DNA of 25,527 nucleotides from a virus: positions 1-25,527 of IMG/VR virus record IMGVR_UViG_3300022594_000028. One strand, written 5' to 3'. A program made the translations under genes and the position numbers. This document shows, in pieces, positions 17,446 through 21,026 of the stretch; positions within the stretch are counted from its first letter, which is position 1; each line of letters starts with the position of its first letter. A model generated the notes under the pieces. The model had not been told where the DNA came from and made no database searches. It was given only the letters and a program-made list of their open reading frames with translations.

Positions 17446-17740
17446 CTAATATATCCTTGATGCTATCATCGAAGTCTTTCATGGCTTGGTCAATGGCAAT
17501 CTCTTCCCAGATCCTATCAGCCTGTCCGTCTTTAGTGGAAACTAAAATTGCAGCCATTGCTACAATCAGACGCTTGCCTTCTTCTACGTCTTCACCTACT
17601 GTGTCATAGATGTCGTGCAATACTTGAAGCACGTCCATCATCCGTGTCTCTGACACGGGGATACCTACAGTAAAGTTAAGGTGATCGCAGTGATCCCAGA
17701 AACTATTGTCCAGTGGTAATGCATTCCCTGATTCGCTCAT
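17435..17740 (-). CDS. Hypothetical protein after the TOPRIM primase
   Basis: A 101-residue acidic protein. ATG at 17740 was chosen over an in-frame GTG 12 bases earlier, which also lies inside the preceding gene. It is helical with a central hydrophobic helix (RLIVAMAAILVSTKDG, too short and mixed for a membrane segment) and an acidic C-terminus (FDDSIKDILDEK). No motif or family is recognised. Overlap with both neighbours supports coding. Confidence 0.55.
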   Translation of the reverse strand: MSESGNALPLDNSFWDHCDHLNFTVGIPVSETRMMDVLQVLHDIYDTVGEDVEEGKRLIVAMAAILVSTKDGQADRIWEEIAIDQAMKDFDDSIKDILDEK

Positions 17741-18338
17741 CGATCCACTCACTCTCTTGTTTGACTATCACACTATTAACGTCTTCACCATCAGGCATAC
17801 TGATAATGTTTACATTGCCTAACTCACGGCTAACTTTCTTGCCGAACTCTAGACCAGCAGCGTCACCATCTGCAAGTACAATCACTACATCGAAGTCATC
17901 TAGTATTTTGTTGTAGTGTGGTTTCCAGTTGTTAGCACCAGGAATACCAATGGTTGGATGCTCAGTTTTAACTGACATCATCATGCAATCAAACTCACCT
18001 TCGGTGATGCAGATGTATTTGTCTGCAACAAAGCAAGCCTGTGTATTAAACATGGTTGTCTTGCTACCTACTAAGCCTAGATACTTAGGGTCTTCACCAT
18101 GCATGCTGCGGAATCTAATATCAACTACACCTGAAGGTGTAATGTATGGAATAGCAATGCGTCCTTTGTACTGCTCATGACCTGGAACGGGATCGTCTAC
18201 TACTCCCAGATGAAATACTTGCGCCTCTTCTACCGAGAGATGACGGCTTGATAGATACTCTGTTGCGAGATCTATCTTGCTGGCGTATCTCTGTGTTGCC
18301 TGTAGCAAGAACTGACGCTGCGAACTGGACAGCCTCAC
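17703..18338 (-). CDS. TOPRIM-domain primase, catalytic part of a split DnaG-like primase
   Basis: A 211-residue protein. Residues 14-60 match the helical part that follows the zinc finger in DnaG-type primases (YASKIDLATEYLSSR, then HEQYKGRIAIPY). The TOPRIM core shows ITEGEFDCMM (catalytic Glu113) and VLADGDAAG (Asp157 and Asp159), needed for metal binding during primer synthesis. The start is a GTG at 18338 placed 8-9 bases after AAGGAGG, which lies inside the CHC2 gene; an in-frame stop (TAA) lies about 30 bases upstream. So this protein is translated on its own and overlaps the CHC2 gene by 164 bases in another frame. It should work with the CHC2 protein and the RecA-fold helicase. Confidence 0.88.
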   Translation of the reverse strand: MRLSSSQRQFLLQATQRYASKIDLATEYLSSRHLSVEEAQVFHLGVVDDPVPGHEQYKGRIAIPYITPSGVVDIRFRSMHGEDPKYLGLVGSKTTMFNTQACFVADKYICITEGEFDCMMMSVKTEHPTIGIPGANNWKPHYNKILDDFDVVIVLADGDAAGLEFGKKVSRELGNVNIISMPDGEDVNSVIVKQESEWIDERIRECITTGQ

Positions 18339-18558
18339 GATAATCTCCTCCTTCTTTAAACATGATTAGGGAATAGGTATCACCCTTAACGCCACAGCCA
18401 TGGCATATGAATGCGTTGTGATCGTAGTTAACTGCTGCACTTGCGTGACTATCTTCGTGAAACGGACACTTCATCTTACGCCAGCCACCACCGTGTGCTG
18501 GTGGTGTTGCACCTAAGTACACTAGGTACTCTTCAATGCTTGGCTTCTCCTTGTCCAA
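18175..18558 (-). CDS. CHC2 zinc-finger primase subunit, N-terminal part of a split primase
   Basis: A 127-residue protein with CPFHEDSHAS (C31, H34) and FICHGCGVKGD (C52, C55), the CHC2-type zinc-binding domain that recognises template DNA in DnaG and gp4-type primases. TTG start with AAGGAG just ahead; no ATG is available. Residues 90-127 are Arg/Ser-rich and out of style with the rest, being encoded by the region that is shared with the TOPRIM protein in a different frame. This tail is basic and could still bind DNA. The zinc finger and TOPRIM are normally on one polypeptide in DnaG. Confidence 0.88.
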   Translation of the reverse strand: MDKEKPSIEEYLVYLGATPPAHGGGWRKMKCPFHEDSHASAAVNYDHNAFICHGCGVKGDTYSLIMFKEGGDYREAVQFAASVLATGNTEIRQQDRSRNRVSIKPSSLGRRGASISSGSSRRSRSRS

Positions 18559-18886
18559 GTGCTCTCCTTAATAAATCTACATACACATGACCAGGCATAG
18601 TGCAATACCAATCGGCTGGGCTTCCCCTACCCACACGCTTGTGCCACACCACGCCTGTCCATGCATTATCGTTAGCCATTTCGGTTAACAATTCTTCTGT
18701 CCATCCAGCCAAGTTCATCTTGGCGTGGTTCTTAATCTCGATTGTAACTCCAGGTATACCTGAGATGTCACCCTTGTCTAGGGTAGCACCAGCCAAGCGC
18801 CGATCAACATACGGAAACCATTGCTTTAGATACTTAACGACATCGCGTTCCGCTCCCGAGCCTTTGGCTTTGGCTGCACTACTCAT
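18533..18886 (-). CDS. PD-(D/E)XK nuclease, Holliday-junction-resolvase-like
   Basis: A 117-residue protein with the small archaeal-resolvase-like arrangement: GSGAERDVVKYL (E13), a Arg/Leu-rich strand (VDRRLAGATLDKGDISG, D40) and IPGVTIEIKNH (E50, K52). These make up the metal site of the PD-(D/E)XK fold. In phages it may resolve branched DNA before packaging or act in recombination. The ATG overlaps the helicase stop (ATGA), and the C-terminus overlaps the CHC2 start. Alternative: a VRR-NUC-like or restriction-type nuclease of the same fold. Confidence 0.75.
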   Translation of the reverse strand: MSSAAKAKGSGAERDVVKYLKQWFPYVDRRLAGATLDKGDISGIPGVTIEIKNHAKMNLAGWTEELLTEMANDNAWTGVVWHKRVGRGSPADWYCTMPGHVYVDLLRRALGQGEAKH

Positions 18887-19698
18887 ACTGGCATCTCCAT
18901 TTGTTTGTGATCTCTAAATGTATCTTCGAGATACATAGATCCAGGATCAAACGACAGCGTAACGTATGTGTTACCAGTGAAGTCTGCTTTACCATAGCGA
19001 TTCTTTACTGGTGCAACGCATAGGAATGCGTCTTGTCCTTGCATCATCTGCCCTACTGTAAGTACCATAGCAGGGATCTGCGCTACCATACCCTGCAATG
19101 CAGAGCGTGGCTGACAAGGAAAACCTTGTGCGCCTTCCTTGGTATGGTGCAGTACAAGTACACATGCGTTGGTATCGCGAGCAAGATACTTCAACTCTTT
19201 CATAACCTGTCGCATGCCAGCAAACTCTTCATGTCCATCAATAGCAATGTCCATTAGATTATCTACAACTATAAGGGTAGGTGATCTACCCCACATAGTC
19301 TCGAATGCTGACACCTCATCGTCAAGATCTTTGAGTGAGGGGCTAGGCTCGAACGACCAGTACAGATTGTTGAACTCTCGTAAGAGTTCTTCTGCCCGTG
19401 CTGGGTCAGTCTTTAGCATATGCTCTGCTGCTTGCTGTGTGATCTTGGCTTTCATTGCGAGTAAACGCATAGCCATTGTGTGTGCATTGGTGTCGGCAGA
19501 AAAGTATAGTGTTGGTTGTTTTAGTCTTGCTGCCACATGCAATGCAATAGATGACTTACCTGCGCCTGGAGTACCCGCGATGATAGTTACCTCTGCTCTA
19601 CGCAGAATGATTCCTTCTCGCTGGAAAGCCTGAAAAGGTGGGGGCAATGGTTCGCCACCCACCTCTGGCTTGCCGACACTACGGCGTAATGTTTTCAT
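18883..19698 (-). CDS. RecA-fold ATPase, DnaB-like replicative helicase
   Basis: A 271-residue protein with Walker A GTPGAGKSS (residues 42-50), a DnaB-style segment YFSADTNAHTMAMRLLA (65-81), Walker B LIVVDNL (142-148, D146) and a conserved LVLHHTKEG (about 176-184). It is the size of a lone helicase core, without the N-terminal primase-interacting domain of DnaB. It may be the replicative helicase or a RecA/KaiC-like recombination ATPase. Its place between the Cys/His protein and the resolvase and primase genes favours replication. ATG at 19698 is next to the upstream stop. Confidence 0.82.
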   Translation of the reverse strand: MKTLRRSVGKPEVGGEPLPPPFQAFQREGIILRRAEVTIIAGTPGAGKSSIALHVAARLKQPTLYFSADTNAHTMAMRLLAMKAKITQQAAEHMLKTDPARAEELLREFNNLYWSFEPSPSLKDLDDEVSAFETMWGRSPTLIVVDNLMDIAIDGHEEFAGMRQVMKELKYLARDTNACVLVLHHTKEGAQGFPCQPRSALQGMVAQIPAMVLTVGQMMQGQDAFLCVAPVKNRYGKADFTGNTYVTLSFDPGSMYLEDTFRDHKQMEMPV

Positions 19699-20148
19699 TT
19701 ATGCTTTTGTTTGATCTGCCTGGAATGTATTCCATGCTGGGTCGTTAGCCTTGATGTACTGAGTAGCACACTTGCTTGGATCACCCTGCTTGGCTGGGCA
19801 GAAGTAGCCCTTGTATGGACCGAACTTACCAGTGAGTCCGTGGATGCGAGTCATTGCACCATGAGGACACATGCGTGAGCCTGCACCTACTGATGCTGTT
19901 GGTTCGTCAGCGAATGATCCGCCGAATGCAGTAGCAATTGCTGCTGCCTGTGGGTGTGGTGGTACTGCTGCATTAACTGGTGCGCTACCACGCACTGCTG
20001 CTTCTAGTTCTACAACTGCAGACTTAACTGAGTCGAGTGATAGTGCTACTACCTGATCTAGTTCAGCACCTGATTCTGCACGTACAGTAACAAGCGAACC
20101 TGCTGCTGTCTTAACAGTGATACTGATTGGGGCTTCTGTACTGCTCAT
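19699..20148 (-). CDS. Cys/His-motif protein between exonuclease and helicase
   Basis: A 149-residue protein. The N-terminal half (residues 1-55) is a beta part (ISITVKTAAGSLVTVRAESG) and an acidic helix; a Pro/Ala-rich linker follows (61-90). Residues 92-149 contain MCPHGAMTRIHG and GYFCPAKQGDPSKCATQYI, with C93, H95, C117 and C127, which could bind zinc. The order and place next to the exonuclease and helicase suggest a single-strand-DNA-binding or recombination mediator role, but there is no direct proof. AAAGGAG before the ATG lies inside the end of the exonuclease gene. Confidence 0.62.
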   Translation of the reverse strand: MSSTEAPISITVKTAAGSLVTVRAESGAELDQVVALSLDSVKSAVVELEAAVRGSAPVNAAVPPHPQAAAIATAFGGSFADEPTASVGAGSRMCPHGAMTRIHGLTGKFGPYKGYFCPAKQGDPSKCATQYIKANDPAWNTFQADQTKA

Positions 20149-20149
20149 G

Positions 20150-20926
20150 TTACTCCTTTGTTAGTGGTGTTACTAGTGTCTTCTTTGTATCGCGGAAGGC
20201 TCGCACCTTCATTGCTAACTCGATACCCTTCCATCCTTGCTTGATGTCAACGAAGTGTAGTTCACACTTGCCACTACCTGCTGGTAGATGGACAATGATT
20301 CCTCGCTCTTGGTTAACATCTCCCCAAGTAGAACGGGTTGCCGTAGCAGGGTCGTACGGCAAGCCGTGTGCGTACACTGCTAACTGCATAGCAATCTTAT
20401 TAGGGTAGGAAATACTACCAGTCTTTAGGTCAGAGATAAACAACTCGCCCTTGTATCGAACGATACGATCTGGTGTGCCTGCGATCTTGTACTTATCTAG
20501 CACACAGAACTGTTCGATGTTTACATTTTCAAAATCTTTAGTTGCTTCCGCATACGCTTGAATGTCTGCTGTGTAATCGTCTGGTATAACGCCGAGGTCT
20601 TCGCCTCGATCATACTTTTCGGTAAGCGTATGGATAGCAGTACCAATCGTGGCTTGCTTGGTTGCACCTGCAGCCTCCATTGCATCTTCAACTAGTTTGT
20701 CCATTTCTAATTTGTTATCTCGGTGTGCTGATGCAGCAAGCAATAGGTCTGGACGCAGTGTTAATCCTGCTGCAGCCATGCGTAACTTCCATGCTACTAG
20801 TGCAGTGCCATCATCTAATGAACCTGCAACTGTAGTTGTTCTTGTATATGGTACTGGCTTGCCACCTTTGGGTGGCACTACCATTGGTCTGCCATACTTG
20901 TCTCTAGGTATCTCTAACTCTGCCAT
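20150..20926 (-). CDS. RecB/Cas4-like PD-(D/E)XK exonuclease
   Basis: A 258-residue protein with the full RecB-nuclease motif set: TAIHTLTEKYDRG (H99), IAGTPDRIV (D153), LFISDLKTG (D166, K168) and QLAVYAHG (Q181, Y185; QxxxY). This enzyme type digests DNA ends and in phages supports recombination-dependent replication. It lies upstream of the Cys/His protein, helicase, resolvase and primase genes. Its ATG is preceded by AAAGGAGA (20931-20938), which is perfectly complementary to the loop of a hairpin 12 bases upstream, so its translation may be controlled by RNA structure (see the leader entry). Confidence 0.88.
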   Translation of the reverse strand: MAELEIPRDKYGRPMVVPPKGGKPVPYTRTTTVAGSLDDGTALVAWKLRMAAAGLTLRPDLLLAASAHRDNKLEMDKLVEDAMEAAGATKQATIGTAIHTLTEKYDRGEDLGVIPDDYTADIQAYAEATKDFENVNIEQFCVLDKYKIAGTPDRIVRYKGELFISDLKTGSISYPNKIAMQLAVYAHGLPYDPATATRSTWGDVNQERGIIVHLPAGSGKCELHFVDIKQGWKGIELAMKVRAFRDTKKTLVTPLTKE

Positions 20927-20930
20927 GTGT

Positions 20931-20990
20931 TCTCCTTTGTTTGTCTAGTAGTAGGTAGGTAAAGGAGATTCAAAACCTACCTACTCCTAG
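20931..20990 (-). promoter_or_regulatory. Leader hairpin / H-type pseudoknot candidate that masks the exonuclease ribosome-binding site
   Basis: Read on the minus strand: an 11-bp perfect stem (20985-20975 with 20960-20950) holds a 14-base loop that ends in TCTCCTTT (20968-20961). This is an exact 8-nt complement of AAAGGAGA at 20938-20931, the ribosome-binding site of the exonuclease gene. The 6-base first loop and 11-base last loop fit H-type pseudoknot geometry. Outside a single G-A mismatch, 4 more bp (CTAG/CTAG) extend the stem and would compete with the pseudoknot, offering a two-state switch. No matching riboswitch class is recognised. Confidence 0.6.
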
Positions 20991-20999
20991 TTACCTAAT

Positions 21000-21026
21000 C
21001 ATATCATAGTAGACGGCTATGATATG
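21000..21026 (-). terminator. Perfect 10-bp hairpin over the stop codon of the upstream gene
   Basis: CATATCATAG and its inverse CTATGATATG (21000-21009, 21017-21026) enclose a 7-base loop. The stem includes the stop codon of the DNA-binding protein gene. No T-tract follows on the minus strand, so it may be a weak terminator, an mRNA end-stabiliser or a protein-binding palindrome. Confidence 0.5.

Follow-up and report, generated by a model that had tools for sequence, protein, structure and literature searches.

What is the function of a strong hairpin that lies directly ahead of the first gene of a phage replication operon and carries in its loop the complement of that gene's ribosome-binding site (RBS)? 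The question arises from the window, by which we mean the whole stretch of 25,527 nucleotides analysed here, a 25.5-kb record of an uncultivated virus whose WhiB gene marks it as an actinophage. An earlier note on this DNA suggested that the leader may hide the RBS of an exonuclease gene in an H-type pseudoknot. Covariation in related phages supports the predicted capacity of the leader to form such a structure, and the leader is probably a cis-acting, RBS-sequestering H-type pseudoknot that controls translation of an exonuclease/helicase/primase operon.

Organization of the leader and its operon

The elements of the locus, with S1 and S2 denoting the two helices and L1 to L3 the loops of the predicted pseudoknot, are as follows.

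17703 to 20148, minus strand: downstream operon genes, namely a Phage_gp49-like 149-aa Zn-ribbon protein, a DnaB-like helicase, a RusA-like resolvase and primase pieces
20150 to 20926, minus strand: PD-(D/E)XK (RecB/Cas4-like) exonuclease, 258 aa, first gene of the operon (phrog_466, E = 1.9e-66; PDDEXK_1)
20931 to 20938, minus strand: RBS, AAAGGAGA, the 3' strand of S2 (sequence reading)
20939 to 20949, minus strand: linker L3, 11 nt, with the 3' CTAG at 20948-20945; long enough for an 11-bp stem
20950 to 20960, minus strand: 3' arm of stem S1, ACCTACCTACT (sequence reading)
20961 to 20968, minus strand: anti-RBS, TCTCCTTT, the 5' strand of S2; exact complement of 20938-20931, covarying with the RBS across clades
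20969 to 20974, minus strand: pseudoknot loop L1, TTTGAA; TTTTGG in most relatives of group F1 (defined below)
20975 to 20985, minus strand: 5' arm of stem S1, AGTAGGTAGGT; pairs 11/11 with the 3' arm, and S1 covaries in relatives
20987 to 20990, minus strand: 5' CTAG of an optional stem extension; pairs with 20948-20945, present in the minimum free energy (MFE) fold, competes with the pseudoknot
20998 to 21006, minus strand: extended -10 element TGA-TATGAT (TGnTAnnnT), with a weak -35 match at spacer 16
21001 to 21025, minus strand: dyad ATATCATAG-CCGTCTA-CTATGATAT, spanning the preceding gene's stop codon and part of the promoter region; outside the pseudoknot

Read along the minus strand, the order is TATGAT-TAGGTAA-CTAG-G-AGTAGGTAGGT-TTTGAA-TCTCCTTT-ACCTACCTACT, followed after ACCTACCTACT by A-CTAG-ACAAAC-AAAGGAGA-ACAC-ATG, the last being the exonuclease start codon at 20926-20924. 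The proposed perfect stem of 11 bp is present with all of its pairs, and the 14-nt apical loop TTTGAATCTCCTTT (20974-20961, minus strand, by sequence reading) does end in TCTCCTTT, the exact complement of the RBS AAAGGAGA 22 nt downstream. The loop lengths given earlier are likewise correct (L1 = 6, L2 = 0 and L3 = 11), as is the presence of four additional CTAG/CTAG pairs (20990-20987 with 20948-20945) beyond one mismatch, a G.A at the base of S1. Judged by S1, S2 and these loop lengths, the leader belongs to the H-type class of predicted pseudoknots, with a fit that is sterically marginal in clade 2. The gene behind it had been described as a RecB/Cas4-like nuclease heading a replication and recombination operon, an identification borne out by the phrog_466 match and by a match to the Pfam family PDDEXK_1 above that family's cut-off.

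The extended -10 element, TGATATGAT, ends seven nt before the hairpin in the window, and the predicted transcription start (approximately 20991-20990) would coincide with the first base of the hairpin. Of the leaders described below, about two thirds carry a similar extended -10 ahead of the stem, usually at a distance of 4-9 nt, and many of those from clade 2 lack it. As the -10 ends a few nt before the stem in most groups, the hairpin probably constitutes the 5' end of the mRNA. No U-tract terminator was found after the hairpin in the window, and hence no separate small RNA is predicted.

Upstream of the leader, the arms of the dyad at 21025-21001 covary in relatives by inspection (TAG/CTA, TAA/TTA), with the loop CCGT often conserved; this dyad may serve as an operator or form a hairpin at the 3' end of the gene before it. 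The product of the gene directly upstream (21472-21017, minus strand, 151 aa) has a zinc ribbon at its C terminus and a weak MarR-like match that stays below threshold; it is a candidate regulator of the leader promoter.

The earlier note had considered a chance origin of the 8-nt match unlikely, and scans of random sequence lead us to reject it. In a scan of the window requiring a stem of at least 6 bp and a loop/RBS match of at least 7, both exceeded by the stem (11) and match (8) observed here, the exonuclease start is the sole gene start with the arrangement. Markov-random versions of the window yielded 0.17 matches per window at a stem of at least 6 and none at a stem of at least 8, and under stricter criteria four randomized genomes produced a single match in 2.16 Mb, i.e. 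0.019 (about 0.02) per 40 kb. In the real genomes with matches, the strict search pointed to the operon-head nuclease only, save for one 7-bp match in one of them (L449).

Distribution among freshwater actinophages

By scanning viral contigs with the exonuclease, the loop sequence, the helicase and the split nuclease described below, we gathered 185 distinct leaders in 45 clusters, all from freshwater actinophage contigs, including the two cultivated Planktophila phages F5 and E7 (PMC10202952). They fall into four broad groups and single outliers. The window-like group F1 combines the loop TTTTGGCTCTCTCCTTGT with the RBS CAAAGGAGA or CAAGGGAGA; a group with a split PD-(D/E)XK nuclease uses CTCTCC/GGAGAG as loop and RBS; clade 2, to which F5 and E7 belong, uses TCTCCTGTC/GACAGGAGA; and group T5 uses GTCTCCTT/AAGGAGAC. 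The outliers show CCTTTCT/AGAAAGG (L468), CTCCTTTG/CAAAGGAG (L260) and CTCTCTC/GAGAGAG (L501).

Relatives that keep the nuclease and lack the stem, which the earlier note would have held against a pseudoknot, do exist, but they are leaderless or their start codon overlaps the upstream gene; having no leader at all, they do not contradict it. For the same reason the records examined from cultured phages of Mycobacterium, Streptomyces and similar hosts, with an exonuclease about 40% identical, provide no test of the leader, as the start overlaps or abuts the upstream gene. Searches of bacterial genomes with the helicase or the exonuclease found no host or prophage relatives.

Several variations on the locus were observed in this survey. 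In one set of relatives (L382-L388, L530-L545) the promoter -10 nearly touches the nuclease ATG, and the mRNA is apparently leaderless. The split of the operon-head replication nuclease is recurrent: in L145, L147, L170 and L214 (and L308, L310-L381) it is broken into a 62-aa ORF for the N-terminal part and a second ORF for the C-terminal part, several such loci have a 45-49-aa zinc-finger-like ORF between the halves, and L329 encodes an intact 253-aa nuclease (PDDEXK_1, Cas4-like). Five leaders (L170, L214, L229, L230, L250) have a long linker that contains another stretch complementary to the loop (GAGAGAGC or GAGAGAGA versus GCTCTCTC); if the loop paired there instead, the RBS would stay accessible. 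In two others (L428, L441) GAGACAC on the stem's 5' side is the complement of GTGTCTC in the loop, and the resulting alternative stem would compete with both S1 and the anti-RBS.

Covariation of the two helices

Covariation in relatives had been named as a check on the proposed structure, and both the stem and the loop/RBS pairing recur throughout the 185 leaders with compensating changes. In the clade-2 alignment (A2), 14 of the 18 lower pairs of S1 show double-sided changes, and 97.5% of its cells are paired, as against 45-49% when the arms are slid. Across clusters several kinds of pair occur at every position close to the loop; the sequence of the stem has thus been freely replaced and its pairing kept. 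S2 is 98.8% paired in the same alignment, its changes being almost all wobble-preserving, with two broken cells. Since the MAFFT alignment across clades (A1) places S2 out of register, S2 was counted by anchoring on CTCC/GGAG; likewise, a custom stem finder was used because weak inner pairs made the apical loops from RNAfold too small.

Between groups the loop and the RBS shift jointly, from TCTCCTTT/AAAGGAGA to CTCTCCTT/AAGGAGAG, GTCTCCTT/AAGGAGAC (recoded in L435, L449 and L465), CTCCTGTC/GACAGGAG (Planktophila phages F5 and E7) and CCTTTCT/AGAAAGG (L468). Nearly all leaders retain a loop:RBS match of at least 7 nt; weak or broken matches are seen in L248, L253, the L261 group, L265 and L518. 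The mean score of loops against their own RBS is 7.12, a value lowered by the stem finder having misplaced the stem in five clusters (L368, L370, L320i, L326i, L526), compared with 5.39 for shuffled loops and 6.46 +/- 0.15 after exchange of RBSs between clusters (z 4.4, p 2e-5, in permutations that treat clusters as independent and ignore their relatedness). As GGAG is found in nearly every RBS, the CTCC of the loop is partly uninformative, and the case for compensation therefore rests on the flanking pairs. With CTCC/GGAG held fixed, and clusters again taken as independent, the flanking S2 pairs number 147 versus 130 +/- 5 in swapped sets (p 0.0009); the +5 pair alternates between U-A and G-C (p < 1e-4) and the -2 pair between C-G and G-C (p 0.04). 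Independent compensations between loop and RBS may be few, perhaps three or four.

The earlier note had cautioned that any loop complementary to an RBS also mimics the anti-Shine-Dalgarno sequence of 16S rRNA. This concern is reduced: the loops CTCCTGTC and CCTTTCT follow RBSs that depart from the 16S complement, and mimicry alone fails to explain them. Taken as a conserved RNA element, the leader very probably has two genuine helices.

Geometry and energetics of the alternative folds

Plain folding, which is unable to represent a pseudoknot, gives the extended hairpin as the MFE structure of the leader (-22.1 kcal/mol, z -1.8), and in this structure the RBS is unpaired. We therefore examined the helices in an A-form model, whose parameters and assignment of the deep and shallow grooves are general knowledge. 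In this model L3 must span about 42-47 A across an 11-bp stem and its 11 nt reach about 72 A, such that a stem of 11-13 bp leaves sufficient linker in the window. With the CTAG extension formed, 6 nt would be left for over 50 A, and the extension and the pseudoknot are hence predicted to be mutually exclusive in the window; helix geometry in this way supports the competition between extended hairpin and pseudoknot proposed earlier. In clade 2 a stem of 18 or more bp is near the limit for a 9-nt linker (59 of 60 A). With a pseudoknot penalty of 9.6 kcal/mol, the pseudoknot is estimated to be more stable than the simple hairpin by 1.4-5 kcal/mol in six leaders; these rough figures suggest a near-balance that would suit a switch.

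These considerations allow a tentative scheme. Transcription would start at the hairpin, which would fold first and display the anti-RBS in its apical loop; when the first gene's RBS has been transcribed, the loop could pair with it, and the H-type pseudoknot so formed in vivo would block binding of the 30S subunit. Extension of the lower stem would tighten the linker and free the RBS. A phage protein, an RNA chaperone or ribosome competition are candidate triggers that may shift this balance, and the shift would limit or time the output of the operon. The function of the leader is thus likely to be that of a cis-acting translational repressor of its operon.

Probable cis action and alternative explanations

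The position of the element relative to the first gene bears on whether it acts in cis. In L056 a 69-aa gene has been inserted between the hairpin and the exonuclease; the loop matches the RBS of the inserted gene, and the displaced exonuclease has an RBS of its own, CCAGGAGG, which no longer matches the loop. A small gene has been inserted in many clade-2 phages too, with the hairpin and a matching RBS in front of it, and in L320-L378 the element is kept ahead of the inserted first gene. That the element stays before whichever gene is first argues for cis action on the first cistron.

The RBS side of the pairing is a phage-wide motif rather than one unique to the leader, because in Planktophila phage F5 GACAGGAG also precedes seven other genes, none with a hairpin. 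The same motif stands before the ATG of 4-9 genes in five clade-2 phages and of 0-1 in other genomes, with no occurrence in the F1 phages tested or in the leaderless relative L384. AGGAGAC is among the commonest RBS 7-mers (5-8 genes) in four phages with the loop GTCTCC, and is frequent in T5 phages. As a separate observation, L547 (OX376641.1) and G010-G013 use GACAGGAGAA as an RBS motif specific to their lineage, in front of 4-9 genes; it deviates from the 16S complement and is missing from the leaderless relative.

That the genome-wide RBS motif tracks the loop (GACAGGAG in clade 2, AGGAGAC with the loop GTCTCC) could mean that the hairpin, or a fragment processed from the leader, acts in trans by pairing with several phage mRNAs at the RBS motif they have in common, as the loops of some bacterial regulatory RNAs bind Shine-Dalgarno sequences; the pairing in cis would then be a side effect or autoregulation. 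Were this so, one 5' leader would coordinate translation of a phage regulon whose shared RBS motif (GACAGGAG of the Planktophila type, AGGAGAC in others) co-evolves with the loop. We regard this as unlikely, given that the element always lies directly upstream of its own first gene, and favour the simplest reading, namely that the leader gene uses the preferred RBS of its phage and the loop follows it.

The conservation within clades of loop bases outside the anti-RBS (TTTTGG, GAGTAC) is what would be expected if a phage or host protein bound the hairpin together with a conserved loop (TTTTGG..CTCTCC or GAGTAC..), repressing translation or protecting the mRNA, with the loop/RBS complementarity secondary. 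T4 gp32 and gp43 offer precedents for such an operator (PMC3014915). However, this conserved part differs between clades and the complementarity to the RBS is common to nearly all leaders, which makes a protein operator improbable. It is distinctly improbable that the leader is solely a 5'-terminal stabiliser, in which a strong stem slows mRNA decay and a pyrimidine-rich loop fits the RBS incidentally: strong stems are found everywhere and transcription is predicted to start at the stem, but the covariation of loop and RBS is left unexplained. A DNA-level element (a replication or recombination site extruded as a hairpin) or a transcription terminator or attenuator, as the location at the head of a replication operon might suggest, can be practically dismissed, with no U-tract terminator found and the element always placed shortly before a start codon and matching the RBS of that gene even when the first gene is a different one.

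Relationship to known regulatory RNAs

As a predicted sequestering pseudoknot the leader can be set beside several characterized systems. In the repZ leader of IncI-alpha plasmids a hairpin loop pairs with a site just upstream of the translation start, and this pairing activates translation and is countered by an antisense RNA. Against Rfam 15 the window matched no family at the gathering threshold. The preQ1-II riboswitch (RF01054) is similar in that an anti-Shine-Dalgarno sequence in the 3' part of a hairpin loop fully occludes a downstream RBS by forming a pseudoknot with it (PMC11625349). The RF01054 model scored 26.2 bits for the window (E 0.0096) and 25.7 bits for L038, relative to a gathering threshold of 47 bits, and did not match eight other loci. 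Moreover, preQ1-II has the HLout topology with a P4 hairpin in the linker and lies upstream of queT in Bacillota, whereas the window leader has an 11-nt linker free of a hairpin and lies upstream of a PD-(D/E)XK nuclease in actinophages. Membership in preQ1-II is rejected on score, topology and context.

The gene 32 leader of T4, T2 and RB69 resembles the one studied here as a phage leader pseudoknot before a DNA replication/recombination gene. The T4 pseudoknot lies 67 nt upstream and nucleates binding of gp32 over the RBS, which is outside the pseudoknot and separated from it by an A+U-rich tract; in the window leader the RBS is itself a strand of S2, and the first gene of the operon is a nuclease, unlike in an autogenous operator of the gene 32 type. 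With the RBS within the predicted pseudoknot, we reject such an operator on topology. In the preQ1-I type III riboswitch AAGG is occluded in the second helix of an H-type pseudoknot, and the rpsO operator of ribosomal protein S15 is another pseudoknot (mentioned in PMC3014915); both control translation in response to a known ligand (preQ1 or S15), and Rfam detected no sequence similarity between them and the leader. The leader would function as other RBS-sequestering pseudoknots do, and we consider it a new family among them; we found no description of this actinophage element in the literature.

Biological implications

Phage translational switches built on pseudoknots have rarely been described, and the T4 gene 32 leader was regarded in 2010 as perhaps the sole viral case of autoregulation (PMC3014915). 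The leader family reported here is present in many uncultured viruses of abundant freshwater actinobacteria, where it heads the replication/recombination operon, and its presence in the two cultivated Planktophila phages (E7 and F5) makes it testable. It also offers a clean natural data set for the co-evolution of an RBS and its sequestering partner.
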